A stretch of 64,000 nucleotides of DNA from Paenibacillus puerhi (lineage in GTDB: Bacteria > Bacillota > Bacilli > Paenibacillales > NBRC-103111), in assembly GCF_009846885.1 (NCBI RefSeq), contig NZ_WUWM01000002.1, positions 62,001 through 126,000 of the forward strand. The letters are read 5' to 3'. Positions 4,805 to 23,659 of this stretch are shown here, one piece after another (positions within the stretch are counted from its first letter, which is position 1; the number at the start of each line of letters is the position of its first letter). A program made the position numbers and the translations under genes. The notes below the pieces were generated by a model. That model saw only the letters and a program-made list of their open reading frames with translations. It was not told where the DNA came from and did not search any database.

Positions 4805-4822
4805 GCCCCTTGGATAGAAGGC

Positions 4823-5056: not shown

Positions 5057-5171
5057 AAGTCAGTCACCCTCCCTTCCATCGGTATAACCTATCATACCCC
5101 AAAACCTCCCTAATGTGACGGATATCTCTCAGATAGATCCCATGACTCCCAGGGAGACTCGATTCAACGCA

Positions 5172-5205
5172 GAAGACCGCCGGAATCCATATTCCAGCGG
5201 TCTTC
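5172..5205 (-). terminator. Hairpin after the LysM peptidase gene
   Basis: GAAGACCGC (5172-5180) pairs with GCGGTCTTC (5197-5205), just past the stop at 5210. There is no long T-run, so it may act with limited efficiency. Confidence 0.55.
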
Positions 5206-5209
5206 CTGT

Positions 5210-6409
5210 TTATATGACCAGACCCTCGATAAGAAGCGGCATCAGCTCGCGGATGATAAGCCCAAACTGCTCGATAGGCAAAGGATTGACCCCATAGCCG
5301 GCTTCAATCGTAAAGCCCGGCCGGCCGTACTCCCGGATAAACCAATCCTTGTAACCGGCATCGCTACCTGTGAGCTTCACCGCGCGGTAGCCGCTCAGCT
5401 CCTCGAAGCGTGCGGCCAGCGGAGCCGCCTCCACCGGCTCGAAATCCCGGTAATTCCAATAAATTTCCCGGCCCTGAGTATGAAATGCCATCACTAGACG
5501 GAAGTTCCGGCTAGCCGTAAAGTCGGCCATCGCCCTTGCCTCCGGCTCGGATAGCGGGCCCGGCCCCGTATAATCACGTGGTCCGGGTCCCGGCCTGGCA
5601 CGGCGGTCACGCTCGGTCTCCCAGTAGGCAGGAAACTGATCATTCAGATCCACGCCTTGGATATTGGCCTTCCAGCCAGTAAAATCGGAGGACCCTCCAT
5701 TCCACTCAAGCAGCCGCTCATAGTATGGATGCTCGGGCGAGGCTCCCCGCAGAACAAGCTCGACACCGTCCGGGTTGACCATCGGCACGATCCATAAGGA
5801 GGTTTCCTCCATCAGCTTCCCGGCATCGCTGCCCGCCAAGGTCTTCCCGCTGGCTGCAGCCGATGCATAACGCTCGGCAAAACGCATGAGAAGCAGCGAA
5901 GTGATCCATTCATTGGCGTGAAAGGAACCGTTGTAATGCACCTCCCGCTCCCCATGCCCGATCCGGATGTAGGGAATCGGCTGTCCCAGCACGGTTCGGC
6001 CTATCGAACCAACTTCAATAAAAGGAAACTCCTCTTGAAGCTGATCGAGCTGGGAGGTGAGCTCCCTATAGCCATAGACGCCATCTTGGGCGCGGACGAT
6101 GCCGTACAGCCGCGGCAATGTCAGAGTTTGTCCAATACGCAGACGACGCGGGTGGACATCGGGATTAACCTCCAGCAGCTGGGCGGGCTCCAGCCGAAAG
6201 ATCCGGGCCACCTCTTCGAGCGTATCCCCGGCCTGCACGGTGTAGCTGCAAGCGGGCAATATCGGAATACGAATGGTGGCCCCGGGCTTCATTCCGCTAA
6301 GTTCCCTAAGCTCGCGATTCGCCCCGACTAACTGTTCCACCGGCAGGCCGTACCGCATCGCGATACGCTCCCATGTGTCTCCCCGTCTGATCACATAAAG
6401 GAATGTCAT
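5210..6409 (-). CDS. LysM-containing M14 zinc carboxypeptidase (gamma-D-glutamyl-diaminopimelate endopeptidase type)
   Basis: A 399-aa peptidoglycan hydrolase. Two N-terminal LysM repeats (YVIRRGDTWERIAMRYGL and YTVQAGDTLEEVARIF) bind cell-wall glycan. The M14 domain starts near residue 105 (YGYRELTSQLDQL). It has the zinc motif HANE, the second ligand region, the substrate-binding NPDGVELV, and the catalytic FTIEAGYG near residue 360. This is the layout of Lysinibacillus endopeptidase I and related sporulation or recycling enzymes. The ATG at 6409 with GGAGGTG upstream is preferred over the upstream in-frame ATG at 6469. It has no signal peptide, as in endopeptidase I homologues. Downstream of glutamate racemase on the same strand. 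Confidence 0.88.
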   Translation of the reverse strand: MTFLYVIRRGDTWERIAMRYGLPVEQLVGANRELRELSGMKPGATIRIPILPACSYTVQAGDTLEEVARIFRLEPAQLLEVNPDVHPRRLRIGQTLTLPRLYGIVRAQDGVYGYRELTSQLDQLQEEFPFIEVGSIGRTVLGQPIPYIRIGHGEREVHYNGSFHANEWITSLLLMRFAERYASAAASGKTLAGSDAGKLMEETSLWIVPMVNPDGVELVLRGASPEHPYYERLLEWNGGSSDFTGWKANIQGVDLNDQFPAYWETERDRRARPGPGPRDYTGPGPLSEPEARAMADFTASRNFRLVMAFHTQGREIYWNYRDFEPVEAAPLAARFEELSGYRAVKLTGSDAGYKDWFIREYGRPGFTIEAGYGVNPLPIEQFGLIIRELMPLLIEGLVI

Positions 6410-6480
6410 ACCTCTTACCCACCTCCGGCATCCTACCCATGCCGCAAGCGGCATGCGTTTCTCCAACATATGCCGGACAT

Positions 6481-7290
6481 TTATATTATATTCGGAACCC
6501 GCCAGACGACCGGCGTTACTCGGATCTGCTCCCCGAGCCAGCTCTGGGCGATCATGCGAAACATCGCCGGGTCCCCGCTGCAGAAAAATTGATGGACAGG
6601 GATAACCGGACTATTGGCCAGCATGCCTTTGTGGTACAGGATCGTGCTAACTTCTCGTGCCGTTTCTTCTGCGGAGCTGATCAGCTTGACCTGCGGCCCC
6701 ATAACGTTGCCGATCGCATCGGCCAGAAACGGATAATGCGTACAGCCGAGAATCAGACAGTCCAGCGGCAGGCCATTCAACTCCTGCAAGGTTTCCTCCA
6801 CCACCTGAGTAGTCCGATCTGTGCGGAACAGCCCGCGTTCGACCAAAGGAACGAATTCCGGACAAGCCTTGCTCACCACTTGAATGCTCGGCGATATTTG
6901 GCGCAGCGCCTGTTCATAGGCACCGCTTCGGATCGTCCCTTCCGTACCGATCACGCCGACGAATTGGTTACGGGTTGATTTGATAGCTGCACGGGCCCCC
7001 GGATGGATGACGCCGATCACCGGAATCGACAGCCTCGATCTGATTTCTTCAATCGCAACAGCAGTCGCCGTATTGCAAGCGATCACGATCATCTTCGGTT
7101 GATATTGGAGCAAATAATCGACGATTTGATGCGTAAAATGGATGACTTCTTCAGCTGGCCTCGGACCGTAAGGCGTCCGTGCGGTATCGCCGAAATAAAG
7201 GATTTTTTCTTGCGGCAGTTGGCGCAAAACTTCCTTTGCCACCGTTAGTCCGCCGACCCCTGAATCCAGTATGGCAATCGCTTGCTGCAC
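6481..7290 (-). CDS. murI: Glutamate racemase
   Basis: A 269-aa cytoplasmic enzyme that interconverts L- and D-glutamate for peptidoglycan. N-terminal ILDSGVGGLTVAKEV is the substrate-binding signature, followed by FGDTARTPYGPRP. Both catalytic cysteines are present, in VIACNTATAVA near residue 73 and ILGCTHYPF near 185. The length is typical. It starts with GTG at 7290 behind AAGGAAGCG. The next gene on the strand encodes a LysM cell-wall peptidase that releases the same D-Glu-containing peptides, so a shared cell-wall theme is likely. Confidence 0.95.
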   Translation of the reverse strand: MQQAIAILDSGVGGLTVAKEVLRQLPQEKILYFGDTARTPYGPRPAEEVIHFTHQIVDYLLQYQPKMIVIACNTATAVAIEEIRSRLSIPVIGVIHPGARAAIKSTRNQFVGVIGTEGTIRSGAYEQALRQISPSIQVVSKACPEFVPLVERGLFRTDRTTQVVEETLQELNGLPLDCLILGCTHYPFLADAIGNVMGPQVKLISSAEETAREVSTILYHKGMLANSPVIPVHQFFCSGDPAMFRMIAQSWLGEQIRVTPVVWRVPNII

Positions 7291-7458
7291 GTATGTTCGC
7301 TTCCTTCATCATAGGATGTGTAAGACTGGATGCTGCTTCTACAGAATATGTAAGTCCGGGAGTAACGGTCACCATGGACACGCCTATTGCGCGGCTGCCC
7401 CGGCATCCTCCCGCTCTCCGGGCTTCGTGACGGCAGGCTTACGTTCTATCCGTCCCTT

Positions 7459-8550
7459 CTACTTGGGAGGCTCGATGTCATCGAGAAGGGCGAGCGTGTA
7501 GCCCGCTTTTTGGATCGCCTTAACGATCCGGTCCAGCGCCTGGATATTTTCCGGGGAGCCCTGATGCATCAGTATAATATTGCCGTCATGCAAATTATTC
7601 ATAATATCGTTATACGGGTCCTCGGCTCCGTTCTTCCTCGGTTCCCAATCCCGCATCGCCGTGGACCAGAAGACCGAGGTGTACCCCATGCCGGATACAA
7701 GCTCCAGCAAATGCTTGTTATACCGGCCGTAAGGGAAACGGAAAAATGGCTGAATGTCCTGTCCCGTTACTTCCTTGTACAGCTTCTCGTAATCCTTGAT
7801 CTCCTTGCGGACCTGGTCGTCCGTCTGGAGATTCATATCCGTATGCGTCATGGTATGATTGGCGACCAGATGGCCGTCCTTCACCAATTGCCGCACAAAA
7901 TCGGGATTTTTCTTAACATTGTACCCGGCGATAAAAAAATTGGCTTTGGCGTCATTGTCCTTGAGCGCCTTCACCAGCGTATCGATATCTCCGAGGTCTC
8001 CGCCCGTATCGATGGTCAAATAGACCTTTTTCCCGGTGCCGACCCACAGCGCCTTCATACTGTCCGCGAACGTCTTGGTTTCGCCCGGAAAACCCGGGAC
8101 CTGACCCTTGGACTTTTTCATATAGTACCACGATAGCTGCTTCCGGTCTCCGCTCCCTGGCTCCTGAGGCTTGGTCGCATTCGATCCGACTGCGGCGCCT
8201 GCCGGATTGCGGGTCGCTCCATACACCGAGCCGGCTGCCGTATCCGGGGAAGGGCTCGGAGCGGGCTTCTCCTTGGACTCAACTGGCTTGGTCGTCTCAA
8301 GCCCCGCTCCTCCAGCTCCATCCGGCGCGGAATTCCCATTCCCGCTTCCCGAGGTAACCGGGGTCACCGGCGGGGAGGGGACGACCTGGGCCTCACTTGG
8401 AGGCTTTACACGCTGCTGCGTCGGGGCGGCCGGCGCAGGTTGCTCAATCGGCGCTCCCGAGCTACCGCTGCCGTTGCCGCCATCGCTGCAAGCCGTTATA
8501 ACACAGACCAGCGCCGCGCATGTCAACCCGATTCTTATGTATCTAGTCAT
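7459..8550 (-). CDS. Polysaccharide deacetylase lipoprotein (PdaA-like NodB domain)
   Basis: A 363-aa exported lipoprotein. The signal peptide ends in the lipobox VITAC (Cys21). A ~110-residue low-complexity Gly/Ser/Pro linker follows, then a NodB domain from about residue 150. Motifs: VYLTIDTGGD (usual T[FI]D.G), NHTMTHTDM metal-binding histidines, RFPYGRYN, and LMHQGSPENIQALDRI near the C-terminus. The order and the late motif are closest to the PdaA group that makes muramic delta-lactam in spore cortex, though a membrane-tethered linker is unusual for PdaA. Start ATG at 8550 has GAGGAGG. Cell-wall deacetylation is firm, spore role is inference. Confidence 0.85.
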   Translation of the reverse strand: MTRYIRIGLTCAALVCVITACSDGGNGSGSSGAPIEQPAPAAPTQQRVKPPSEAQVVPSPPVTPVTSGSGNGNSAPDGAGGAGLETTKPVESKEKPAPSPSPDTAAGSVYGATRNPAGAAVGSNATKPQEPGSGDRKQLSWYYMKKSKGQVPGFPGETKTFADSMKALWVGTGKKVYLTIDTGGDLGDIDTLVKALKDNDAKANFFIAGYNVKKNPDFVRQLVKDGHLVANHTMTHTDMNLQTDDQVRKEIKDYEKLYKEVTGQDIQPFFRFPYGRYNKHLLELVSGMGYTSVFWSTAMRDWEPRKNGAEDPYNDIMNNLHDGNIILMHQGSPENIQALDRIVKAIQKAGYTLALLDDIEPPK

Positions 8551-13287: not shown

Positions 13288-13318
13288 TATTTATTTTCGT
13301 GCAGCCGTCCATTACAAT
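13288..13318 (+). promoter_or_regulatory. Promoter with TATTTATTTT box, first XRE-LytTR gene
   Basis: TATTTATTTT at 13288-13297 is followed after 15 bases by TACAAT at 13313-13318. The box covers the -35 position, which lacks a TTGACA match. The same box and spacing occur at 14201 and 19515. Confidence 0.6.
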
Positions 13319-13341
13319 GGTTGTGAAAGGGGTGAGCCAGG

Positions 13342-14007
13342 ATGGGTCAACCTATTCCTGATTTTGGAAAGTTTCTAGAATCCTTACGCGGCTCGTTGTC
13401 ATTGCGCGAAGCTGCCAAAAAAAGCGGGTTGTCCCACGCCTACATCAGGGACCTTGAGCTCGAACGCAACCGTTCGACCAATGATCGCATCACACCGTCT
13501 CCGGATACCTTGCAGAAGCTGTCCAGGGCCTACGGTTATTCTTATACAGAACTGATGGTGAAGGCAGGCCATCTGAGCGATGGAGATGTATTAACCGGCC
13601 GTCAAAGCGCCAAAGACGATATGGATCTGGCTCATATACGTTATATTGAGATCGGAATGAACGAGATCGTCTATCACAGCGAATCCTCCGATATCGCCCG
13701 TAGTGTCGACTCTCTGGTGGATTTCAGCGCGTTCCTGGACAAGCTCGAGGAGCATGGCTTCCGTAAGATGGATACCGACCTGTACGTTAGCTTTCACCAT
13801 ATTCGGAAGTACGACGAGCGCCGCGGCAGGCTGTATTTCGACGATGCGGGAGAAGGACCTTGCGTGACTATCGCGGCCTTAAGGCAGAAGAAATACCATG
13901 ACCTGCTGATCCGGCATGTGGCCAACAACACGAATAAAAGCCTGGAGTTCGCGTTCGGGAAAAACAACAACGGACAGCTAGTTCAGGTGATAGAAGATAA
14001 GGTATAA
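13342..14007 (+). CDS. XRE helix-turn-helix regulator with C-terminal LytTR-like domain (paralogue 1)
   Basis: A 221-aa cytoplasmic regulator. Residues ~8-72 form an XRE-type HTH (SLREAAKKSGLSHAYIRDLE). Residues ~92-200 match a LytTR-like domain: IRYIEIGMNEIVYH, then GFRKMDTDLYVSFHHIRKYDERRGRLYF, the expected strand-helix-strand order including the 'gF.r.d...Vn..hI..yd' stretch. LytTR domains bind promoter direct repeats in Agr-type systems, so this protein may hold two DNA-binding modules. It has a close paralogue 250 bases downstream and shares its second domain with the GGDEF-EAL protein at 21851. No response-regulator receiver domain, so it is not a standard phosphorylation target. Confidence 0.85.
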   Translation: MGQPIPDFGKFLESLRGSLSLREAAKKSGLSHAYIRDLELERNRSTNDRITPSPDTLQKLSRAYGYSYTELMVKAGHLSDGDVLTGRQSAKDDMDLAHIRYIEIGMNEIVYHSESSDIARSVDSLVDFSAFLDKLEEHGFRKMDTDLYVSFHHIRKYDERRGRLYFDDAGEGPCVTIAALRQKKYHDLLIRHVANNTNKSLEFAFGKNNNGQLVQVIEDKV

Positions 14008-14082
14008 CTACTACTCTAGTAAAGCTTACGGCGGAGCAAGGACAAATATACCTGAATGGACCAAGTTAACGATTCGTTTTAC

Positions 14083-14145
14083 AAGGCGAAAAAGAGACGG
14101 AACACACGAGGCTTCTCTAGTGTTCCGTCTCTTTTTCGCCTTTTT
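14083..14145 (+). terminator. Strong 23-bp stem terminator
   Basis: The 23 bases from 14083 to 14105 pair perfectly with 14120-14142 (core GACGGAACAC/GTGTTCCGTC), followed by a T-run. It separates the two XRE-LytTR genes into different transcripts. Confidence 0.88.
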
Positions 14146-14200
14146 CTGTAGATTTATCCGCCGTTCTATGGAAATATAAACCTCTAATGTAGGAACAAGG

Positions 14201-14231
14201 TATTTATTTTTTATCGCGACTCCTTTACAAT
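14201..14231 (+). promoter_or_regulatory. Promoter with TATTTATTTT box, second XRE-LytTR gene
   Basis: TATTTATTTT at 14201-14210, 15 bases, then TACAAT at 14226-14231. Identical geometry to the promoter at 13288. Confidence 0.6.
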
Positions 14232-14253
14232 GATTGGAAAGGGGGCATCACTC

Positions 14254-14916
14254 ATGGGTCAACCTATTCCTGACTTTGGAAAATTTCTCGAGTCGCTTCG
14301 CGGCTCTATGTCTCTTCGCGAGGTAGCCAAAAAAAGCGGGCTGTCTCACGCTTATATACGTGATCTGGAGCTGGAGCGCAACCGCTCCACCAATGACCGG
14401 ATTACACCTTCGCCAGATACCTTGCAGAAGCTGTCTATCGCCTATAGCTACCCGTATACCGAGCTGATGATTAAAGCCGGGCATCTGAGCAGCGAGGATG
14501 TTGTAAGCCACAAAGGGTTTATAGAAGAGCTCGACTTGGAAGATGTTCAGTACATCGAGATCGGTTTGAAGGAAATTGTGTATCATTGGGAGGATTCTCT
14601 GGTCGCCCGGAATGTGGATTCTTTGCTGGATTTCAGTACATTCATGGACAAGCTGGAGGAGTACGGCTTTCGCAAGATGGATGCCGATCTGTATGTGAAT
14701 TTCCATCATATTCGCAAGTATGACGAGAAGCGGGGCAAGCTTTACTTCGATGAACAAGGGACCGGGGCCGAGGTTACCATATCCGCCCTGCGCCAGAAGA
14801 AGTACCATGCGCTGCTGAGGCGCTATGTCGCTAACAATACCAACAAAAGCCTGGAGTTTTCGATAGGCAAGCCAAGCACAGGAAGAGTGGCTTCTTCCGT
14901 GGAGGACCCTGTGTAA
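14254..14916 (+). CDS. XRE helix-turn-helix regulator with C-terminal LytTR-like domain (paralogue 2)
   Basis: A 220-aa protein nearly identical in layout to the regulator at 13342: the first ~80 residues differ at few positions, the linker diverges, and the LytTR-like half is again similar (GFRKMDADLYVNFHHIRKYDEKRG). The ATG at 14254 is chosen because it aligns with paralogue 1 and has a GGGGG site; an ATG at 14230 sits in the -10 region. It is followed after two bases by the first AgrC-like membrane protein gene, so the two are in one transcript. This regulator-plus-membrane-protein pairing suggests that a membrane sensor controls the regulator. Confidence 0.85.
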   Translation: MGQPIPDFGKFLESLRGSMSLREVAKKSGLSHAYIRDLELERNRSTNDRITPSPDTLQKLSIAYSYPYTELMIKAGHLSSEDVVSHKGFIEELDLEDVQYIEIGLKEIVYHWEDSLVARNVDSLLDFSTFMDKLEEYGFRKMDADLYVNFHHIRKYDEKRGKLYFDEQGTGAEVTISALRQKKYHALLRRYVANNTNKSLEFSIGKPSTGRVASSVEDPV

Positions 14917-14918
14917 TC

Positions 14919-15572
14919 ATGATCCCGATGACTCCGGCTTTGTACATGGTCTGTTATCCGTTCGTATGGTGGGGGATTCTTACTTTGACGTTAGGCCTGT
15001 GCCGGCTGAAGGTTAAGGATTTCCTATATCCGTTGCTCGTTTCCGTTACTCTGCTTTCCACGATTTCGGTAACGCTGCAGATCAATGACTTGGCCTTTTT
15101 GACCGGTTCCGTCCAACCAGTCTGTCTAATCCTATGCCTATGGTATATATTCAGGTTCCGACTCTCTTACTCTGTGCTTGTTATTGCTGTCGTGTATGCC
15201 TCTTTTGTAGTATTGGAATATTTGTATAATCTCATCTTGGCTTCCTTTGACTTACAGAAGACCATTTTTTATTATCAAAACGACAGGCTGATTATTTTTT
15301 TCCTTCTGCCCGCAACCGCCTTTGTTATGTACGCGATGCTCCATCGACTTCGTTGGGGGTTTTCATTCCTTTCGACCCGGATAATACGAACAGAGCTAGA
15401 TCAGATGCCTAGGCTCTGGTTGTCCTTACTGGTCCTGGGATTCCTTCTATCCCTGAATCTAGCCCTAAGTATTTACTTCCATTCTCATCTGGTTCTTATT
15501 TTTATACTCAGCTACATGATTATTGGAGCCGCACTTTTACTGCTGTATTATCGGAAAGAGTTAAATGAATAA
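14919..15572 (+). CDS. Polytopic membrane protein resembling the AgrC sensor domain, no kinase (member 1)
   Basis: A 217-aa protein with about seven hydrophobic segments and a short cytoplasmic tail ending YRKELNE. It shares with the six other proteins of this region the motifs F-R-F-R before TM4 (YIFRFRLSYSVLV), a conserved Glu about 20 residues later (LEYLYN), and LHRLRWGFSF after TM5. This resembles the input domain of AgrC-type histidine kinases, but the DHp and ATPase domains are absent: the frame stops where the kinase would begin. It is cotranscribed with the second XRE-LytTR gene and closed by a terminator. The homology call is by eye. Confidence 0.75.
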   Translation: MIPMTPALYMVCYPFVWWGILTLTLGLCRLKVKDFLYPLLVSVTLLSTISVTLQINDLAFLTGSVQPVCLILCLWYIFRFRLSYSVLVIAVVYASFVVLEYLYNLILASFDLQKTIFYYQNDRLIIFFLLPATAFVMYAMLHRLRWGFSFLSTRIIRTELDQMPRLWLSLLVLGFLLSLNLALSIYFHSHLVLIFILSYMIIGAALLLLYYRKELNE

Positions 15573-15596
15573 GCGAATAGTCTTTCTAGAATAAAG

Positions 15597-15640
15597 AAAA
15601 GCCTTCAAGGCCGGGATCGGGAGCTTGAAGGCTTTTGTGT
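15597..15640 (+). terminator. Rho-independent terminator
   Basis: AAAAGCCTTCAAG (15597-15609) pairs with CTTGAAGGCTTTT (15624-15636). It ends the second XRE-LytTR / membrane protein transcript. Confidence 0.82.
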
Positions 15641-15749
15641 GGAATTTGTTAAGAAGTGAAACTAAATATTGGCAAGTCCTAGAAAATCCCTTACACTCAG
15701 ATCAGCATTCATTAACTGTATGATTTACATAGGAAAGGGATTTTGCAAA

Positions 15750-16391
15750 GTGACCTTTTATTTATTTGCTTATCCGTTTTTATGGGCTTCCGTCTTATCA
15801 TTTGGGTTAGCTTTATGCCGACTTAAAGTTTCGAAATATAAGCTACAGCTGGTCCTATCCATTGTACCTTTAACCATAATGGCTGTAATAGTCCATTACT
15901 ACAAACAAGCTCATTGGTTCGGTCTCCTGCAGCCGATCGCTATGACTTTATGTTATTGGCGGATTTTCAGGTTCCGACTCTTTCACGCTTTTCTGGTAGC
16001 CTTAAGTGTTTTTGCCAGTGGAGGACTATCTGAAACATTATTGAATTTGTTCGTTGCCGGGTTTCACTTAGAACGTTCTCTCCTTAACCAGCGAAACGTT
16101 CTTGCCATCATGCCTGTTCTGATGACCGGCTTTCATGTCATCCTATATTTCTTGCTTCATAAATTTCGAGTAGGATTTTCTTTTAAAGCACCCTCTCGGT
16201 TGCCCCCCATTGCCGAAAATGAATATTCGTGTGATTGGTTGTACGTGAGTATCGGTTTTCTTTGTATTTTACTCTTATTAAATCTTGCCATCTATTTTGC
16301 CTTATCTCTATTTGTGCCCTTTATCATCTTGACTATTGTCCATTGGGTCATCTTATTGTATTTTTCTTATCGCAAGGAAATTAAAGATTAA
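15750..16391 (+). CDS. AgrC-sensor-like membrane protein, no kinase (member 2)
   Basis: A 213-aa polytopic protein of the same family. It has AYPFLWASVLSFGLALCRLK at the start, WRIFRFRLFHAFLVALS, LSETLLN and LLHKFRVGFSF, and ends YRKEIKD. The GTG at 15750 is preferred over the ATG at 15669: AGGAAAGGG lies at the right distance and the protein then starts like its paralogues. The coding region is clearly more AT-rich than the housekeeping genes. It is followed after 20 bases by member 3, so the two probably share a transcript. Confidence 0.75.
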   Translation: MTFYLFAYPFLWASVLSFGLALCRLKVSKYKLQLVLSIVPLTIMAVIVHYYKQAHWFGLLQPIAMTLCYWRIFRFRLFHAFLVALSVFASGGLSETLLNLFVAGFHLERSLLNQRNVLAIMPVLMTGFHVILYFLLHKFRVGFSFKAPSRLPPIAENEYSCDWLYVSIGFLCILLLLNLAIYFALSLFVPFIILTIVHWVILLYFSYRKEIKD

Positions 16392-16411
16392 TAGGTTAGA
16401 GGGATTTAATC

Positions 16412-17059
16412 ATGACGACTACTGAGTATATATTTGCCTATCCTTTTTTATGGTTCGGGTTACTTTCATTAGGGCTAGCCTTATGCAGAATGAAGATGTC
16501 CAAACATAAAAAGAGATTGTTGGTTGCCATTATTTTATTAAGCATTATGTCTGTAACCGTCCAGTTTTATGAAAAGGCCTATTTATTCGGGATACTTCAA
16601 CCCCTAGCTGTAACCCTATGTTTTCGCCTCATTTTCAGGTTGCGCACTTTCCATGCTTTCCTAGTATCATTATTTATCTTTGTCAGCGGTGTTTTATCCG
16701 AAATTCTATATAATCACATTATTGCTGGCTTTCATTTTGAACAGGCGCTCTTTTATCAACAAGATGATCTTACCCTTACAAGCAATCTGATGGCTTTGCA
16801 TCATTTAGGACTATACTTTATACTTCATCGATTTCGGCTTGGCTTTTCATTTATCGCCCCCTCAGCAGAAAATGCATTAAAACAACCTAGCTTCTCAAGA
16901 ACATGGTTTATATTAGCAATAGGACTATTATTCTTTCTAGGCATGTTCAACATTTCAGTGTACTTTACCAACCACTTATTGTTACCTGTCACAATTTCAT
17001 TTATGGTTTGTTGGGCAGTCATACTTTTTCTATCCTATCGGAAGGAACTAGAGGATTAA
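16412..17059 (+). CDS. AgrC-sensor-like membrane protein, subgroup A (member 3)
   Basis: A 215-aa protein with about seven hydrophobic segments, starting MTTTEYIFAYPFLWFG. Family motifs: RLIFRLRTFHAFLVSL, LSEILYN, ILHRFRLGFSF, tail YRKELED. It is highly similar to member 5 at 18107 over its whole length. With the following gene at 17081 it forms an A-B pair that recurs at 18107-19420. AGAGGGATTTAATC precedes the ATG. No enzymatic domain is visible, so a receptor or immunity-type membrane role is more likely than catalysis. Confidence 0.78.
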   Translation: MTTTEYIFAYPFLWFGLLSLGLALCRMKMSKHKKRLLVAIILLSIMSVTVQFYEKAYLFGILQPLAVTLCFRLIFRLRTFHAFLVSLFIFVSGVLSEILYNHIIAGFHFEQALFYQQDDLTLTSNLMALHHLGLYFILHRFRLGFSFIAPSAENALKQPSFSRTWFILAIGLLFFLGMFNISVYFTNHLLLPVTISFMVCWAVILFLSYRKELED

Positions 17060-17080
17060 TTATTGGAAGGAAGATGAGTC

Positions 17081-17725
17081 TTGTACTTTTTTTGGCTTTA
17101 CATGATCTCATTAGCATGTTGGTTTTCTGTCTTCATGATAGGTTTAACAATGTTTCGCGTATCTTTCAAAAATTATATGTCACCTTTGCTGGTTAGTTCT
17201 ATTTTAATGTCCGGTATCACAACAAGTATCCACTATTTCCATTGGAACGCTTTCACGACATTAATACAAACCTTATGCTTCGCTACATGTCTGTTGGTGT
17301 TTTTTAGATTTCGCATTTTGTTCTCAATCGTATTTACGCTGATTAGTAATATTTTTATCATGCTTTTTGAACTACTTTTGTATTTGGTCTGGAGCCTATT
17401 AAGTCAATCGGATTTTTTTGAAATGGCAAAAGAAAATGCTATTTTACCAAGTATTTTCATTTGTGGAAACAACATTCTAACTGCAGCTCTATTGCATAAA
17501 CTACGTTTAGGATTCACTCTTCCGTCAAAATATGTAGACTCACATCTCATAAAACTGGCTACTCCAAAACTTTTATTCTTACTTATAGTAGGAATTTTTA
17601 GTGTTTTTTCAATAGCCCTTGCTCTTTATCATTATGTAGATTGGATGTTGCTTAATGTTTTATTTGCTTCCATGCTAATTGCACTCGTTGCATATATTAT
17701 TCTAAAAAACGAAATGGAACACTGA
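17081..17725 (+). CDS. AgrC-sensor-like membrane protein, subgroup B (member 4)
   Basis: A 214-aa polytopic protein starting with TTG at 17081 behind GGAAGGAAGATGAG. It begins YFFWLYMISLACWFSV, has VFFRFRILFSIVFTLISNIFIMLFELLLY, then LLHKLRLGFTLPSKY, and a final segment LYHYVDWMLLNVL, ending KNEMEH. Compared with subgroup A it has a longer TM4 loop and a distinct C-terminus, so A and B could be partner subunits. It lies 21 bases after member 3. The near-identical partner is at 18776. Confidence 0.77.
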   Translation: MYFFWLYMISLACWFSVFMIGLTMFRVSFKNYMSPLLVSSILMSGITTSIHYFHWNAFTTLIQTLCFATCLLVFFRFRILFSIVFTLISNIFIMLFELLLYLVWSLLSQSDFFEMAKENAILPSIFICGNNILTAALLHKLRLGFTLPSKYVDSHLIKLATPKLLFLLIVGIFSVFSIALALYHYVDWMLLNVLFASMLIALVAYIILKNEMEH

Positions 17726-18106
17726 CCCGCTTCAATGCCTGTTGATTTACCAGAACAGAAATAGACTCATAATCAGAATAATCATGAAATCAATCTGTAT
17801 CATCCATTAAACCGGTAAACTTGGCTAACGAATCCTTGACTACCATTCAATTGTCAACCAAAAAAGGCTTGCTTGCCGGACTCAATATGCAGCAGACCTT
17901 GCTACATTATACCAAATAGATTAATTAATCGTTCCCTTTCCACACTGCGGTTGACTATTAGTGAGTCTCTGCTTTTTTGAATCTTGTTCCTATTCACTTT
18001 TTCCATTTAATTTTTCATATCTCTAGTTTGTATCCTTTGTCACTTTGAGCATTGTTTGTTAGGCCAAGGAAATCCAAGAATAAAAGTAGAATTAGAGGAA
18101 TTTATC
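17726..18106. other. 381-base intergenic region between the duplicated units
   Basis: No gene can be supported. An AT-rich stretch at about 17990-18045 probably holds the promoter for the second unit. A plus-strand open frame of ~50 codons ending at a TAG near 17920 has no usable start or ribosome site and no recognisable motif. Confidence 0.4.
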
Positions 18107-18757
18107 ATGACGACCATTTCGTATATATTGGCCTACCCTTTTTTGTGGGGCGGTTTGCTTTCCGTCGGATTAGCACTATGCAGAATGAGGGCTTCAAGGC
18201 ATATGATTCAGATGTTGGTAGCCATAATTTTATTAAGCATAATGTCTGTTATTGTTCAGTATTATGAAAAAGCTTATTTATTTGGGATACTTCACCCCAT
18301 TTCTTTGACTATTTGTTTTCGGATGATTTTTAAATTGCGCCCCTTCCATGCTATTTTGATTTCAGTAATTATTTTTGCTAACGCGGTAATATCCGAAATT
18401 CTTTACAATATTCTAACAGCTGGTTTCCATATTGAAACTGCACTATTCTATCAGCAGAATGATTATCTCATTTCATGCCTTTTCATGGCTTTGCATCAAT
18501 GGTGTCTGTATTATATCCTTCAACGATTTCGTATAGGCTTTTCATTTATAGCACCATCTGCTGGAAACGACTTGAAACGGCTCTCCTTCTCAAGAACATG
18601 GTTTATACTGGCACTAGGTCTTTTACTTTTTCTAGGAATGTTCAATCTTTCGGTATATTTTACCAACCACTTGCTACTACCTATCATAATTTCTTTTACA
18701 GTATGTTGGACTATTGTACTTTTTCTATCTTATCGAAAGGAATTAGAGGATAATTAG
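18107..18757 (+). CDS. AgrC-sensor-like membrane protein, subgroup A (member 5)
   Basis: A 216-aa close paralogue of member 3: MTTISYILAYPFLWGG at the start, RMIFKLRPFHAILISV, ISEILYN, ILQRFRIGFSF and the YRKELED tail with one extra Asn. The ATG at 18107 has AGAGGAATTTATC upstream and aligns with member 3; the open frame extends back to 18056 without a good start. First gene of the second A-B unit. Confidence 0.78.
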   Translation: MTTISYILAYPFLWGGLLSVGLALCRMRASRHMIQMLVAIILLSIMSVIVQYYEKAYLFGILHPISLTICFRMIFKLRPFHAILISVIIFANAVISEILYNILTAGFHIETALFYQQNDYLISCLFMALHQWCLYYILQRFRIGFSFIAPSAGNDLKRLSFSRTWFILALGLLLFLGMFNLSVYFTNHLLLPIIISFTVCWTIVLFLSYRKELEDN

Positions 18758-18775
18758 TTGAAAGGAAGAGGAGAC

Positions 18776-19420
18776 TTGTACTATATTGGACTCTACTTGG
18801 CCTCATTAGCATGTTGGTACTCTGTCTTCATGCTAGGTCTAACCATGTTTCGCGTATCTTTCAAAAAACATACTTCTCCAATTCTACTCAGTTCTAATTT
18901 TATGGCCTGCGTTTCCACAAGCATTCACTTTTTCGATTGGAATGCTTTCACAACAATAATCCAAACCATTTGCTTCGTTGTATGCCTTACCCTACTATTC
19001 AGATTTCGTATATTATTTTCAATAATTCTCACACTTATTAGCAATATCTACACTATGCTATTCGAATTGCTGTTGTATCTGAGTTGGAGCAAAATCGGTC
19101 AATCTAATTTTGTAGATATAGCAAGAGAGAATGCTATATTACCAAGCCTTTTTATCTGGGTAATTAACATTTGTACTACAGCACTATTATATAAATTTCG
19201 CCTTGGGTTCACTCTCCCTTCGAAATATCTAGATAAACATTTTATAAGATTGGCTTCTCCTACATTTGTACTGATACTTACGTCCGGAATTATGGGTGTT
19301 TTTTCACTTACTTTTGCTCTTTATCATTACATAGATTGGATGTTACTTAACGTTTTCTTTGTTTCCATGATTGTCGTATTCATTGCCTACCTTTTATACA
19401 GAGATGAGTGGGATCATTAA
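18776..19420 (+). CDS. AgrC-sensor-like membrane protein, subgroup B (member 6)
   Basis: A 214-aa close paralogue of member 4: LFRFRILFSIILTLISNIYTMLFELLLY, LLYKFRLGFTLPSKYLD, LYHYIDWMLLNVF, tail YRDEWDH. Two TTG starts are possible, 18758 directly after the stop of member 5 and 18776. The second is chosen because it aligns with member 4 and follows GGAAGAGGAG. No catalytic residues of kinases or transporters are seen. Confidence 0.75.
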   Translation: MYYIGLYLASLACWYSVFMLGLTMFRVSFKKHTSPILLSSNFMACVSTSIHFFDWNAFTTIIQTICFVVCLTLLFRFRILFSIILTLISNIYTMLFELLLYLSWSKIGQSNFVDIARENAILPSLFIWVINICTTALLYKFRLGFTLPSKYLDKHFIRLASPTFVLILTSGIMGVFSLTFALYHYIDWMLLNVFFVSMIVVFIAYLLYRDEWDH

Positions 19421-19514
19421 CCACTTTTGAATCAAAATGAACAGATAATCGTATTATACATACAACTAAATGTCAATGTAGTTAAAAAAATATAAAAATA
19501 ATTTTAGAAAAACC

Positions 19515-19545
19515 TATTTATTTTCCCCATTTACTCTTATAGAAT
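19515..19545 (+). promoter_or_regulatory. Promoter with TATTTATTTT box upstream of the CPBP protease gene
   Basis: TATTTATTTT at 19515-19524, exactly 15 bases, then TAGAAT at 19540-19545. This is the third copy of the box-and-spacing arrangement in the region. The leader to the CPBP start at 19717 is about 165 bases. Confidence 0.55.
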
Positions 19546-19590
19546 AGACACTATAAGTATATAATATATTGAAGTTCTACTGAATCGGCG

Positions 19591-19617
19591 AAGGAGGTTC
19601 CGAGGAAGTACCCCCTT
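19591..19617 (+). promoter_or_regulatory. Leader stem-loop upstream of the CPBP gene
   Basis: AAGGAGGT (19591-19598) can pair with ACCCCCTT (19610-19617) with one mismatch. A perfect ribosome-site-like GGAGG is in the stem, but no start codon lies within reach downstream of it. Purpose unknown. Confidence 0.35.
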
Positions 19618-19716
19618 AGCTTGAATATTAAAGACTTTAAGAATGGATTTACGTTTCCTTTTGAATTTTGAAATTTTGTAGCAAGAAAGAATTCACTTAT
19701 GTAAGAAGGCTTAAAA

Positions 19717-20307
19717 ATGTATAATCCCCCTAATAGATCTTTACTAATTTGTATTGTTTTTATTATCGCAACATCAATTAGTATGATGTTTTCAAACAAA
19801 TATGTTATAATTTTCAACCCATTATTTTCAACTTTATTTATTTTTTATTTATGTAGAGAGGAATGGATACGTTATGATTTTAATCTTTTAAAGAATAGAA
19901 GTCTCTACGTTTGGGTGTATATTGGATTATCGCTTTGTCTTCCAGTGCAAGCAATAAATTCCTTGATATTTGGTCAAATGAACACTACATCTGAGAATAT
20001 AAGTCATGAATATATTATAGTTCCTATATATATTATTACAGGTGCCATAATAGAGGAAATTATTTTTAGAAAAATAATATTTATGAACCTCAATAAGTAT
20101 CTTCCATTTTTTATGAGTGCCTTCATTTCTTCACTAATTTACTCCCTCATGCATCTAAATAATGCTAGATTTATTGGATATCTTGCCGTAGGGTACATTC
20201 TCTGTGTTATTTATAAAAAATCTAATACCATATTATCAACGATAATCATACATATTATTCTTAACATTGCGGGACTTATTTCTATCTCTTTGAATGTTTT
20301 ATATTAA
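19717..20307 (+). CDS. CPBP family intramembrane metalloprotease
   Basis: A 196-aa membrane protein with the CPBP (ABI) motifs: EEIIFRK near residue 114 (motif EExxxR), a His in YSLMHLNN near 150, and HIILN near 186. These are the predicted catalytic Glu and His residues in the membrane. Members include prenyl-endopeptidase-like enzymes, bacteriocin immunity proteins, and S. aureus MroQ, which is required for Agr autoinducer maturation. It is flanked by AgrC-like genes and lies two genes upstream of agrB, so a MroQ-like role in peptide processing is plausible (inference). Very AT-rich coding. Confidence 0.85.
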   Translation: MYNPPNRSLLICIVFIIATSISMMFSNKYVIIFNPLFSTLFIFYLCREEWIRYDFNLLKNRSLYVWVYIGLSLCLPVQAINSLIFGQMNTTSENISHEYIIVPIYIITGAIIEEIIFRKIIFMNLNKYLPFFMSAFISSLIYSLMHLNNARFIGYLAVGYILCVIYKKSNTILSTIIIHIILNIAGLISISLNVLY

Positions 20308-20419
20308 AGACTAATTGTTGACTAATTTCGACAAAATTCTGCTTGAGAAGTAATCGTAAGTATATTAAAATTAGTCCATTGAGCAATATTTTAATATATA
20401 AATTTTAAGGAGCCTTTCC

Positions 20420-21091
20420 ATGAGTATATGGATCAAATTACCATTCTTTATTTTTGAATATGCAGCAGCAATTATTTTTACATTATCTGCATTTCGGTTA
20501 CCCATTAAATTCTATCTTCATAAAATTTTGCTGATTGCCTTGTCCATGTCCTTTGTCTTTATTTACATAAGAGACTTCTTACACCAAACCAGTTTTGCCT
20601 TAATTCCGACTCTCATAATAGAAATTATTTTAATAATGATATTTTTTAGGTTACCTTTGATTTTTTCTTTTTTTGTAGGAATAATAGGATTATTAGGCGT
20701 TGGGACAGTAGAACTTACCGTTCTTTGGCTAGAAACAAATTTTAATGTTTTCACTTTTGAGCAAACCAGAAATAATAGCGCCTTAGTACAATTCCCTACA
20801 GGAGTGCTGTTATTGTTGATTACGTTTTTGCTACAACGCAGAAAAATAGGATTTCATTTTACGGTTCAAGATTCGCTACGCGGCTACAATTTTTATCTAT
20901 CAGCCGTTCTAATAATTGCTGTTGTCATGTTCCAACTCACAACCCTCTCTCTTACATCTAATTTATTTAACATACTTATTCCGATCATTTTTGGTCTTAT
21001 AATGGTTACTGCAATCTATCTTTCATATAAACATAATACCAAACTCTGGAAGGAACGCAGAGCACGATTGGAGAAAAGAAAAGGTGAATAA
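20420..21091 (+). CDS. AgrC-sensor-like membrane protein, first gene of the agrBD operon (member 7)
   Basis: A 223-aa polytopic protein more distant from members 1-6 but with the same plan: KLPFFIFEYAAAIIFTLSAFRLP, IFFRLPLIFSFFVG, a Glu in TVELTVLW, LLQRRKIGFHF, and a longer basic tail (KLWKERRARLEKRKGE). The N-terminal pattern is the one closest to AgrC input domains. No kinase domain follows. Its stop TAA at 21089-21091 directly abuts the agrB ATG at 21092, so it is translated with agrB and agrD. AAGGAG precedes the ATG. The likely receptor for the local peptide, unless a kinase elsewhere performs this. Confidence 0.78.
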   Translation: MSIWIKLPFFIFEYAAAIIFTLSAFRLPIKFYLHKILLIALSMSFVFIYIRDFLHQTSFALIPTLIIEIILIMIFFRLPLIFSFFVGIIGLLGVGTVELTVLWLETNFNVFTFEQTRNNSALVQFPTGVLLLLITFLLQRRKIGFHFTVQDSLRGYNFYLSAVLIIAVVMFQLTTLSLTSNLFNILIPIIFGLIMVTAIYLSYKHNTKLWKERRARLEKRKGE

Positions 21092-21655
21092 ATGAATCCT
21101 AACCTCATAGATCGTACTGCTAGGTATCTTGCTATTTCCATTAGAAATAACTACCCGGCAGCTCACTCAGAATCAGTTCTCACCTATTCCTTGATAACAC
21201 TCATTAACACTCTTTCTGCTATTATTATTTCGTTGATAGTCTCCGTTTTTACGAATCATATATTTGAAACAACTATTACTATAATTGCATTTCTAGCTAT
21301 TAGGTACGTCAGTGGAGGCATGCATCTTAGTTCCTCTGTACATTGTTCAATATTTTCATCCATAGTAATATTGATTTCTAGCCATATTTTCTTTCAGTAT
21401 CAAGGCTGGGGACAAATACTGAATTTCATTTCACTAATAATTCTTAGTATAACTGCTCCCAACGGAATAAAAGGAGTAAGTAGGATATCGGAGAGATACT
21501 ATCCTATTTTAAAGTTAATCTCCTGTATAATTGTTTTATTAAATTTTTGGATTCAATCTCCTTCCCTTTCTATGATATACTTTATTCAGGCAGTACTTAC
21601 TACTAAAGTTGCATATAGTATTAAAGATTACTTTGAAGGGGGGCATCATACATGA
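21092..21655 (+). CDS. agrB: AgrB-family peptide-processing membrane protease
   Basis: A 187-aa membrane protein with the AgrB catalytic pair: His in RYVSGGMH and Cys seven residues on in SSSVHC, near residues 74 and 81. The spacing equals His77/Cys84 of S. aureus AgrB. AgrB cleaves the C-terminal tail of AgrD and forms the thiolactone. Hydrophobic segments surround the motif as expected. The stop codon overlaps the start of the peptide gene (ATGA), which couples their translation. No adjacent agrC/agrA two-component pair exists. Confidence 0.92.
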   Translation: MNPNLIDRTARYLAISIRNNYPAAHSESVLTYSLITLINTLSAIIISLIVSVFTNHIFETTITIIAFLAIRYVSGGMHLSSSVHCSIFSSIVILISSHIFFQYQGWGQILNFISLIILSITAPNGIKGVSRISERYYPILKLISCIIVLLNFWIQSPSLSMIYFIQAVLTTKVAYSIKDYFEGGHHT

Positions 21656-21774
21656 AGACTCGTTTGGCCATCGTTGCGAACTCTATTTTAATGGCACTTG
21701 CAACCTTCTTTGTTGGAACAAATTGTTTCTTCTCTCACCGCCCAGAAACTCCCGCTGAACTTCTCAGGAAATAA
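21652..21774 (+). CDS. agrD: AgrD-like cyclic peptide autoinducer precursor
   Basis: A 40-aa precursor whose ATG overlaps the agrB stop by four bases, with GAAGGGGGG upstream. It has the three AgrD parts. First comes a positively charged start and amphipathic hydrophobic leader (MKTRLAIVANSILMALATFF). A core with a single cysteine follows (GTNCFFSH). The acidic C-terminal recognition tail is PETPAELLRK, matching the PE.P.EL pattern that AgrB recognises. By analogy the signal would be a Cys-thiolactone ring of about five residues (Cys to His, or one more). The exact ends of the mature peptide cannot be fixed from sequence. Confidence 0.9.
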   Translation: MKTRLAIVANSILMALATFFVGTNCFFSHRPETPAELLRK

Positions 21775-21793
21775 TGTTCGTTATTAAGCCCAC

Positions 21794-21818
21794 GGCTGAC
21801 AAGTCCTGCTTGTCAGCC
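21794..21818 (+). terminator. Hairpin after agrD
   Basis: GGCTGACAAG (21794-21803) pairs perfectly with CTTGTCAGCC (21809-21818), followed by a T-rich but interrupted stretch. It may end or attenuate the agr transcript before the GGDEF-EAL gene. Confidence 0.6.
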
Positions 21819-21850
21819 GCATCTTCATTTTATGGAGCTGATCTTCAACC

Positions 21851-23659
21851 ATGCAGAAAATTCCGGTTACTCGCGACGGTAAGAGAGGTTCCGAGATACT
21901 CGTTATCGATGCCAATGATGTGGTCAAGATCGATCGCATCCGCGAACGCGAAATTATCATTCACACCCAAGACGAGCAGTTTTATCTAGACTTCTCCTTC
22001 GACAACTTAGAAGAATGGCTATTTGAGGACGGATTTCGACAGCTGGACAGCGCCAATATCGTCAACATGAATCATGTCAAGGAGTACGACTCCAGGAAGG
22101 GTCTACTCTACCTCGGCACCGAACCTAATAAAAGGCCTAAAACCGCATCCGCCGCTCGAATCCACAGAGAACACGTCGATAATGCCCTGCAACTGATCAA
22201 AACTGCCCACAACACGGCTACAGACCACAATCCCGAAGTGTACGAAGAACTGTTTTCCCGGATTATTAGCGAGACCAATGATTATCAATTGCTTCGTTCG
22301 TACGCGACCATTCGGGCCGTCAACGAGCGCAAGCGCGCTGAAGAGAAGATTCAGCACATGGCCTACCATGATGCACTCACCAATCTGCCTAACCGACTGA
22401 TGTTCGATGAGAAGCTGAAGGCTTGTTTCTCCGATGCCGAACGGAACGGAAGTGCGATGGCTGTCATTTTCTTCGACCTCGACCGCTTCAAGGTCATTAA
22501 TGACACGCTCGGACATCACGTAGGCGACCAGCTCCTGCAGCGATTGGCCCAGAAACTGCAAGGCTATGTTCATGATAAAGATATCGTAGCCCGTTTCGGC
22601 GGGGACGAATTCATTATATTGCTAACGAATATCGCGCATCCGGATGAGGCTGCCCATTTTGCCGCAGGCATCCCGGAGCTGTTGAAGGAACCTTTCATTA
22701 TTGAAGGTCAAGAGCTTTTTGTAACTGCCAGTATCGGCATCAGCTTGTATCCTCATGATGGGATCGAAGTGGATACCTTATTGAAGAATGCAGACATCGC
22801 CATGTACCGTTCCAAGGAAAAAGGCGGCAATTCCTTTCACTATTATCATCCCGATATGAATAAGCGTTCTATGCACAGGCTGAATCTAGAAATCCATCTC
22901 CGTAAAGCGTTGGAACGAAAGGAATTCGCTGTCTACTACCAGCCTATCGTCGATCTGAAGAATGGTTCGGTGTTTGGCATGGAAGCCCTTGTTCGCTGGC
23001 ATCACCCCGAATGGGGGATGGTGTCCCCAGGAGAATTCATCCCCTTGGCTGAGGAAACAGGGTTGATCGTTCCTATCGGCAACTGGGTGCTCAGGCAGGC
23101 CTGCAGACAGAACCGGGAGTGGCAGCGTCTCGGCTATGCTCCGCTTGTCGTGTCCGTGAATATCTCGGCCATTCAATTTCATCAGATGAACTTCGTTCAG
23201 ATCGTCGTGGATGCTTTGCAAGAATCCGGGCTGGCTCCTGACCTGCTTTGTCTGGAGATCACAGAGAATATAGCCATGAACAACGTCCCTTATATTCTCG
23301 ATACGATGCATAAGCTGAAGGAGCTTGGGGTCCGCATCTCGATCGATGATTTCGGAACGGGTTACTCTTCGCTCAGTTACCTGAAAAGGTTCCGCGTCCA
23401 TACGCTCAAGATCGACCAATCGTTTATCCGCGATGTGACCTCAGATGAAGACAATGCGGCTATCGTCACGGCTCTGATCGCGATGAGTCATCGTCTAAAG
23501 ATCAAGTCTTTGGCGGAAGGCGTTGAGACCCAGGATCAATTGGAGTTCCTGATTTCCCAGGGCTGCGATGAAATTCAGGGCTATGTCTTCAGCAAGCCTA
23601 TGCCTGCCCGAGAATTCGAGGATTTGATTCAGGAAAACAAGCAATTGTATCTGAATTAG
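21851..23659 (+). CDS. LytTR-like domain / GGDEF / EAL bifunctional c-di-GMP enzyme
   Basis: A 602-aa cytoplasmic protein. Residues ~12-110 are a LytTR-like domain related to that of the XRE-LytTR regulators (GFRQLDSANIVNMNHVKEYDSRKG). A helical linker follows, then the GGDEF domain (~170-330) with intact FGGDEF; the upstream inhibitory RxxD position reads HDKD, so product inhibition is probably lost. The EAL domain (~345-595) has EALVRW, VNISAIQF, LEITEN, DDFGTGYSS, KIDQSFI, EGVET and QGY, all catalytic positions present. It can in principle both make and degrade cyclic-di-GMP. There is no membrane segment or PAS domain: the LytTR-like part is the only sensor. It sits 76 bases after agrD and has GC content like the flanks. 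Confidence 0.9.
   Translation: MQKIPVTRDGKRGSEILVIDANDVVKIDRIREREIIIHTQDEQFYLDFSFDNLEEWLFEDGFRQLDSANIVNMNHVKEYDSRKGLLYLGTEPNKRPKTASAARIHREHVDNALQLIKTAHNTATDHNPEVYEELFSRIISETNDYQLLRSYATIRAVNERKRAEEKIQHMAYHDALTNLPNRLMFDEKLKACFSDAERNGSAMAVIFFDLDRFKVINDTLGHHVGDQLLQRLAQKLQGYVHDKDIVARFGGDEFIILLTNIAHPDEAAHFAAGIPELLKEPFIIEGQELFVTASIGISLYPHDGIEVDTLLKNADIAMYRSKEKGGNSFHYYHPDMNKRSMHRLNLEIHLRKALERKEFAVYYQPIVDLKNGSVFGMEALVRWHHPEWGMVSPGEFIPLAEETGLIVPIGNWVLRQACRQNREWQRLGYAPLVVSVNISAIQFHQMNFVQIVVDALQESGLAPDLLCLEITENIAMNNVPYILDTMHKLKELGVRISIDDFGTGYSSLSYLKRFRVHTLKIDQSFIRDVTSDEDNAAIVTALIAMSHRLKIKSLAEGVETQDQLEFLISQGCDEIQGYVFSKPMPAREFEDLIQENKQLYLN

Follow-up and report, generated by a model that had tools for sequence, protein, structure and literature searches.

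Agr is the textbook two-component quorum-sensing system, and an agr locus that encodes neither a histidine kinase nor a receiver-domain regulator raises the question of how its peptide signal would be passed on. Such a locus lies at positions 13288–23659 of a 64,000-nucleotide stretch of Paenibacillus puerhi (the window; the whole genome measures 6.71 Mb). It encodes AgrB, an AgrD-like precursor, a CPBP protease, seven membrane proteins (M1–M7), two XRE-LytTR regulators and a LytTR-GGDEF-EAL protein. We argue that this is probably an Agr-type locus stripped of phosphotransfer on both sides, in which kinase-less AgrC sensors would contact receiver-less LytTR outputs directly and a positive loop would operate.

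An Agr Locus without Kinase or Receiver

Every gene that the first-pass annotation had named is present, at about the positions it gave, and domain scans of the locus found neither a histidine kinase nor a receiver, as that annotation had claimed. AgrB passes the Pfam cut-off and carries a GGMH motif (H78) followed by a Cys at 85; we take this His and Cys to be the catalytic residues. The 40-amino-acid (aa) precursor matches TIGR04223 at 24.1 bits (cut-off 19). Regulator 2 passes the cut-offs for both HTH_3 and LytTR and regulator 1 that for HTH_3 only. In an AlphaFold2 (AF2) model of regulator 2 (predicted local distance difference test, pLDDT, 73; predicted template modelling score, pTM, 0.44), the top match in the PDB was the LytTR domain of AgrA (Foldseek, 4.3e-5). 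All three Pfam domains of the LytTR-GGDEF-EAL protein exceed their cut-offs; its GGDEF, EAL and DDFGTGYSS motifs are intact, and its sole RxxD lies far N-terminal of GGDEF. The best NCBIfam model for the CPBP protein, which carries EEIIFR as its EExxxR motif, is MroQ (NF046050; E = 2.5e-11), at 43.4 bits and so far below the cut-off of 270. In Staphylococcus aureus MroQ is the protease that cleaves off the AgrD leader, according to excerpts of PMC12312760.

The Membrane Proteins Resemble AgrC Sensors

The seven membrane proteins, which the first-pass annotation had likened to AgrC input domains, form one alignable family with five to seven hydrophobic segments each. None of them matches a family above its cut-off (all seven were scanned with Pfam, four with NCBIfam); M7 alone gives a weak match to SLATT_3 in its C-terminal part, below the cut-off (19.2 bits against 45). 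Their relation to AgrC was seen by profile comparison. For this we used the sensors of five AgrC kinases encoded beside agrB (L249, L252, L253, L263 and L269), which were picked through the AgrB search to lessen circularity and were not flagged by the M profile at 1e-4, although two were missed narrowly. The M profile aligned with these sensors end to end, over 207 columns, at 97.7% (hhalign), and at 76.6% over 214 columns with a more remote AgrC type from the order (seven sensors from L278–L286). For the free sensors of about 160 aa found in other classes of the phylum the value was 99.2%. The controls all stayed below 1%, with 0.14% for AgrB, 0.61% for the CPBP protein and no more than 0.24% for any of 13 unrelated membrane proteins.

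When the M profile, built from a 54-row alignment, was searched against 398 genomes of the phylum, matches were found in 73. In the 30 loci that were cut out, strong matches from beyond the family come from the same order and are M genes next to agrB. The weaker ones are of two kinds, namely the sensor parts of kinases of 437–456 aa, which lie beside agrB in L201, L203, L213 and L215, and proteins of about 160 aa, mostly upstream of a kinase of about 285 aa and agrB. M-matching sensor-kinases in L206 and L209 adjoin a receiver-LytTR gene, with no agrB inside the cut. SPOB_a and GHKL domains were found by Pfam in all four long and two short M-linked kinases scanned. The SPOB_a-GHKL kinases whose sensor part matches M are from other classes and mostly adjoin agrB. 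The AF2 model of M7 (pLDDT 84, pTM 0.74) has seven long helices, the last of which extends as a tail. By their profile relation, then, M1–M7 are stand-alone AgrC sensor domains.

A Free Sensor Adjoins Nearly Every agrB of the Family

A search of 104 genomes of the family (Paenibacillaceae) found M in 85 and AgrB in 66, the latter with 117 matches. About 10 kb on each side, contig permitting, were fetched for the AgrB matches except the window's own and one below the cut-off; with the window included, our own profile gives 117 AgrB open reading frames (ORFs), two of which are the halves of one frameshifted gene (L190). In 113 of these 117 ORFs an M gene lies within 800 bp on the same strand. 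The layout is thus strongly conserved, and because it recurs across many genomes the array is not a chance assembly. M is missing beside four ORFs: the second half of L190; L076, whose agrB is followed by a GHKL kinase gene; L105, which has a GHKL kinase 957 bp away in divergent orientation; and L091, which has neither M nor kinase within 2.5 kb. A same-strand kinase occurs within 2.5 kb in 6 of the 117, five of which also have M. The idea that every AgrB adjoins a LytTR gene was dropped, 82 of the 117 having one within 4 kb. At L190 (about 4500–7900, − strand) agrB and the LytTR-GGDEF-EAL gene are each broken into two frames.

In the wider order (Paenibacillales) 26 further loci were cut out with 1.5 kb per side. 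At fifteen of these, M and AgrB are accompanied by a LytTR protein (at one of them also by a 72-aa kinase fragment), and at a sixteenth only M and AgrB are present. In nine more, agrB precedes an AgrC kinase of the other type; the last is unclear. Both types of AgrC, with and without kinase, are thus present in the order and appear mutually exclusive at any one locus.

The LytTR Domains Belong to a Variant Class

Around the AgrB genes of the family we found 132 LytTR proteins, of which 129 have no receiver. They comprise 26 LytTR-GGDEF-EAL proteins and one broken copy, 46 short (110–136 aa), 19 middle-length and 37 long proteins, and three receiver-LytTR proteins; an XRE motif is present in 32 of the 132. 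At the position of His200 of AgrA, 125 of the 129 receiver-less rows have Asp (27/27 GGDEF(-EAL), 32/32 XRE, 46/46 short and 20/24 other proteins), as do 17 of 18 rows from the wider order, where one locus is counted twice. His occupies this position in 13 of 14 receiver-LytTR rows, the exception being L003, from the P. puerhi genome, with Asn. The window's own XRE-LytTR proteins were left out of both the 14 and the 18 rows. In AgrA, His200, Asn201 and Arg233 presumably contact DNA. We had considered the loss of His200 as proof of lost DNA binding and dropped this; the residue serves only to mark a class. By that mark the LytTR domains here are a variant class (AgrA His200 to Asp). Since the variant LytTR occurs joined to enzymes and to another DNA-binding domain, we infer that it would be a receptor-coupled input domain. 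In the XRE-LytTR proteins the XRE half is better conserved than the LytTR half (0.954 versus 0.797; 20 sequences).

LytTR regulatory systems (LRS) such as HdrRM and BrsRM also pair a LytTR protein with a membrane protein, and they use neither a kinase nor phosphotransfer (excerpts of PMC6193735). Here too a LytTR-family regulator is present (regulator 2 and the GGDEF-EAL protein) and membrane proteins are adjacent. On this model M would inhibit constitutively, keeping the LytTR protein sequestered at the membrane until a signal lifts the inhibition, and LytTR itself would bind repeats in the promoter of the operon; in the sign of M's effect this model may overlap with the explanation we prefer. 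We consider such a system distinctly unlikely at this locus. The residue at AgrA His200 is changed, and there is no excess of paired 9-mers at 21–23 bases upstream: a weak scan for the direct repeats of LRS (9 bp, about 12 bp apart) showed no peak upstream of M, XRE-LytTR, short LytTR or GGDEF-EAL genes at a threshold of 8/9, which would miss degenerate repeats. The partners named in the excerpted account, DUF2154 and NfeD-like proteins, were not found here, and that account, as excerpted, mentions neither an AgrB/AgrD signal nor an AgrC-type sensor.

Agr Loci in Other Classes of the Phylum

We cut out the 30 best-scoring AgrB loci of other classes, perhaps clostridia, with 1.5 kb per side. 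Eleven encode a free sensor (present only in fragments at L275), AgrB and a GGDEF protein, and show no GHKL kinase within this distance. Seven pair a free sensor with a separate GHKL kinase and six have a fused sensor-kinase. Two (L254, assigned by eye, and L273, by Pfam) have a free sensor and a PAS-type kinase after agrB that escaped the kinase profile, which misses kinases of the HisKA type. The rest are one locus with a GGDEF protein and no sensor, two with a kinase only and one with neither. A GHKL kinase and a GGDEF protein were found together within 1.5 kb in none of the 30 loci. Of 10 proteins scanned with Pfam, all truncated by the locus edge, 9 contain GGDEF, and 8 of these belong to the 11 loci; one also had HD above the cut-off. 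Seen by gene order, AgrB is followed by a membrane GGDEF(-HD) protein, with no GHKL kinase within 1.5 kb, in 12 loci (L250, L255–L257, L261, L262, L265, L266, L268, L271, L275 and L276), 11 of which have a free-sensor match. One other-class AgrB was searched for relatives in phage records, and none was found at E 1e-3.

The split receptors of these classes, in which a sensor of about 160 aa and a GHKL kinase of about 285 aa are encoded beside agrB, share with our locus a stand-alone sensor related to M. They differ in keeping the separate kinase, with a receiver-LytTR gene within 1.5 kb in four of the seven loci, and M is the longer protein. It is possible, if not quite probable, that a kinase-free class of Agr exists in Paenibacillales and, separately, in other classes, with freed AgrC sensors contacting their effectors directly. 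In Paenibacillales the effector would be a variant LytTR turned from a DNA-binding output into a receptor-reading input (fused to XRE, GGDEF-EAL or a PAS-kinase), and elsewhere a GGDEF(-HD) protein, so that peptide quorum sensing would be wired straight to cyclic di-GMP (c-di-GMP). An influence of agr on c-di-GMP genes has been described in Clostridioides difficile from an agrA mutant, there via transcription and a kinase system (excerpts of PMC3754575).

Kinases and LytTR Proteins Elsewhere in the Genome

The P. puerhi genome has one agrB. Its LytTR matches beyond the cluster comprise a stand-alone LytTR, a LytTR-PAS-kinase and two receiver-LytTR regulators. The locus has no ordinary agrC/agrA pair, nor does an agrB adjoin either of the two receiver-LytTR systems of the genome. 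There are ten matches to GHKL-type kinases; eight of them were scanned, and within the stretches cut none showed an AgrC-like N-terminal set of six segments by a crude hydropathy measure.

These data bear on the alternative that the M proteins are detached AgrC sensors relying on a histidine kinase from another locus, such as the LytTR-PAS-kinase of contig 67, in which case phosphotransfer would have been moved rather than lost. The seven other-class loci with a free sensor and a GHKL kinase, together with the two that have a PAS-type kinase, offer a precedent, and P. puerhi does encode a LytTR-PAS-HisKA-HATPase protein, with further LytTR matches recurring across the genus. We nevertheless regard a detached kinase as somewhat unlikely. 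The locus itself has none, few AgrB ORFs of the family have a same-strand kinase nearby (6/117), the LytTR regulators here have no receiver to phosphorylate, and no AgrC-like sensor was seen in the eight GHKL kinases scanned.

The LytTR-PAS-HisKA-HATPase protein lies at 17359–17700 (+) of contig 67 (1459–3003 of L005), and its LytTR domain has the same variant Asp. A gene named by eye as a CpsB-like phosphatase adjoins it. The LytTR matches that recur across the genus are in frames of about 514–542 aa.

Two Receptor Types and the Array

The receptors fall into two types. In a tree of 89 M proteins of 190–280 aa, taken from 36 loci with XRE or GGDEF-EAL proteins, 53 array-type proteins form one clade (support 0.77) and the 36 encoded next to agrB lie outside it. 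The division is claimed for XRE and GGDEF-EAL loci only, both profiles scoring many M genes of short-LytTR loci alike. The mean net charge of the last 30 residues is +5.4 in AgrB-adjacent M, a basic tail, versus −0.7 in the array type. In the tree the nearest neighbour of M3 is M5 and that of M4 is M6, a pattern that duplication of a two-gene unit would give. Several array-type genes are fragments (L117, L120, L141, L145, L149, L158–L160 and L175), which suggests that receptors have been gained and lost over time.

The first labelled gene after XRE-LytTR is M in 21 of 32 loci, and in 9 of 32 there is none within 1.2 kb. The gene arrangement suggests that array-type M pairs with XRE-LytTR and M7 with LytTR-GGDEF-EAL. 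At five loci (L191–L195) M occurs with no agrB nearby; these proteins score as array-type, L194 by a small margin, and three of the five genomes (G028, G048 and G050) have no AgrB match.

Since M almost always adjoins agrB, it might instead be an accessory factor of AgrB, serving peptide export or self-protection rather than reception; the export route of autoinducing peptides (AIPs) is given as not known in excerpts of PMC12312760. The AgrC homology of M speaks against such a role, as do the 21 loci in which array-type M follows XRE-LytTR and the M-only loci, three of them in genomes lacking AgrB, and we think it highly improbable.

A Promoter Element Shared by Regulators and Signal Genes

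Three exact copies of TATTTATTTT-N15-TANAAT occur in the window (Table 1), where four copies are found at up to two mismatches against a mean of 0.17 in shuffled sequences. Of the four exact copies in the genome, this locus has three; at one mismatch or fewer there are 11 genome-wide, against one for the reversed pattern. The fourth exact copy is on contig 56 at 155551–155581 (−). A search of the window's intergenic regions for palindromes and shared 9-mers returned only a stretch inside TATTTATTTT, which recurred in three regions.

The form common to XRE-LytTR genes is TATTT[AC]NTTT-N15-TACAAT. Strictly matched, it precedes 14 of 32 XRE-LytTR genes versus 4 of 2345 other ORFs of at least 150 aa; the counts are 0/195 for M, 1/39 for CPBP, 2/117 for AgrB, 0/74 for other LytTR and 0/26 for GGDEF-EAL genes. 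A relaxed form (at least 14/16) precedes 29 of the 32, and two of the remaining three have a 15/16 match close by. In the closest relative, L174, the element also stands before the CPBP gene. A sigma-70 scan called no promoter at the three element sites, as expected if the −35 region is poor. The element is a putative binding site of XRE-LytTR, and its presence before both the XRE-LytTR genes and the CPBP-M7-agrBD operon suggests positive feedback.

Table 1. Features of the P. puerhi agr-type locus, in window coordinates.
Feature	Position	Strand	Evidence
Promoter element copy 1, TATTTATTTT-N15-TACAAT, before XRE-LytTR 1	13288..13318	+	Exact match
XRE-LytTR regulator 1, 221 aa	13342..14007	+	HTH_3 1.3e-8; 74% identity to regulator 2
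Promoter element copy 2, before XRE-LytTR 2	14201..14231	+	Exact match
XRE-LytTR regulator 2 (open frame from 14230)	14254..14916	+	HTH_3 2e-6, LytTR 8.2e-5
M1, array-type kinase-less AgrC-like sensor	14919..15572	+	Family alignment, array clade
M2, array-type sensor (start uncertain; open frame from 15669)	15720..16391	+	Family alignment, tree
M3, array-type sensor	16412..17059	+	Family alignment, tree (nearest M5)
M4, array-type sensor	17081..17725	+	Family alignment, tree (nearest M6)
M5, array-type sensor (open frame from 18056)	18107..18757	+	Family alignment, tree
M6, array-type sensor	18758..19420	+	Family alignment, tree
Promoter element copy 3, TATTTATTTT-N15-TAGAAT, before CPBP-M7-agrBD-GGDEF-EAL operon	19515..19545	+	Exact match
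CPBP intramembrane protease, MroQ-like, probable AgrD leader protease	19717..20307	+	PF02517 1.8e-16, EExxxR motif
M7, AgrB-adjacent kinase-less AgrC-like sensor, basic C-terminal helix	20420..21091	+	AF2 model, tree type
AgrB peptidase	21092..21655	+	PF04647 1e-12; GGMH...C with H78, C85
AgrD precursor, 40 aa; predicted signal around TNCFFSH, Cys as predicted ring nucleophile	21652..21774	+	TIGR04223; 26 orthologous precursors
Inverted repeat, terminator-like, between agrD and GGDEF-EAL gene	21793..21819	+	Terminator scan, overall near chance expectation
LytTR-GGDEF-EAL protein, 602 aa, variant LytTR	21851..23659	+	Pfam; GGDEF, EAL motifs intact

Eleven kb away from the cluster, a c-di-GMP-I riboswitch lies at 2532–2624 (−) of the window (60.9 bits).

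The Peptide Signal

At the 26 GGDEF-EAL loci the precursor reads, with small departures, TN-[S/C/T]-three variable residues-[H/N]R-PETPxELLKK. Counted by eye, the residue at the ring position is Ser in 19, Cys in 3 (the window included) and Thr in 4 of the 26. Five-residue rings are usual among the AIPs tabulated in PMC12312760, as excerpted. Over the whole family the precursor pattern named a candidate for 80 of the 117 AgrB ORFs, at least two of these being spurious (L170 and L178), and none for 37.

In the precursors of 12 short-LytTR loci (L078, L081, L085, L087–L090, L094, L101, L109, L112 and L122) Lys-Pro replaces the Cys, Ser or Thr of the ring position. Their product is perhaps a lactam or an uncyclised signal.

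Discussion

The best-supported reading of these data is that receptor and LytTR protein communicate without phosphotransfer. In the mechanism that we propose, AgrB and the CPBP protease would mature AgrD into a small cyclic peptide with the predicted ring C-F-F-S-H. M7 would sense this peptide and, by direct contact with the LytTR domain of the LytTR-GGDEF-EAL enzyme, change the level of c-di-GMP. M1–M6 would act likewise on the XRE-LytTR regulators, and they may read the peptides of other strains. The XRE domains would activate the promoters that bear the element, their own and that of the CPBP-M7-agrBD operon, closing a positive loop.

Several observations weigh against this mechanism. The variant LytTR profile, which also catches ordinary LytTR domains, has matches in 100 of the 104 genomes, versus 66 with AgrB, and there are strong matches in genomes lacking AgrB; the class is therefore not confined to Agr. 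A LytTR gene lies within 4 kb of just 82 of the 117 AgrB ORFs, and for the others the effector, if any, would be elsewhere. The XRE-LytTR promoter loci come in many cases from close relatives, so they are not independent. No Foldseek match at or below 0.001 was found for the M7 model in the PDB, which holds no clear sequence relative of it; because this comparison was uninformative, the homology of M to AgrC input domains rests on the sequence profiles, in which it is seen. The case for M-LytTR contact and for peptide binding is made from the genes and from sequence comparison. A separately encoded kinase could, by analogy with the split sensor and kinase genes of other classes, still serve these receptors.

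Staphylococcal Agr (agrBDCA with MroQ) is alike in its AgrB, an AgrD of the TIGR04223 type, a CPBP protease (nearest to MroQ here), a polytopic AgrC-related sensor and a LytTR domain. It is unlike the present locus, where the sensor has no kinase, LytTR has no receiver and is fused to XRE or GGDEF-EAL, and there are many sensors per signal gene. Some clostridial agr loci also lack agrC and agrA (excerpts of PMC12312760); agr1 of C. difficile, for instance, consists of agrB1 and agrD1 only (PMC8534292). A free sensor, a variant LytTR partner or a receptor array is not mentioned for such loci in these accounts, as excerpted. Titles and abstract openings in the open-licence PMC literature yielded, among the matches listed, no kinase-less AgrC-like sensors and no such Paenibacillus system. 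The first-pass annotation, which knew of no described system with this composition, thus agrees with these matches: the individual parts are known, as are agr loci lacking agrC and agrA in clostridia, and their combination is described in none of the matches listed.

At this locus the receptor and LytTR have been kept and the kinase and receiver are both gone, and a free sensor stands beside nearly every agrB of the family. The locus makes it testable how an AgrC sensor domain signals alone. With up to seven receptors for one signal gene, the arrays are a natural set for studies of receptor specificity and eavesdropping. If receptor and LytTR do make contact, peptide sensing here would be free of phosphorylation and the signal would reach c-di-GMP in one step.

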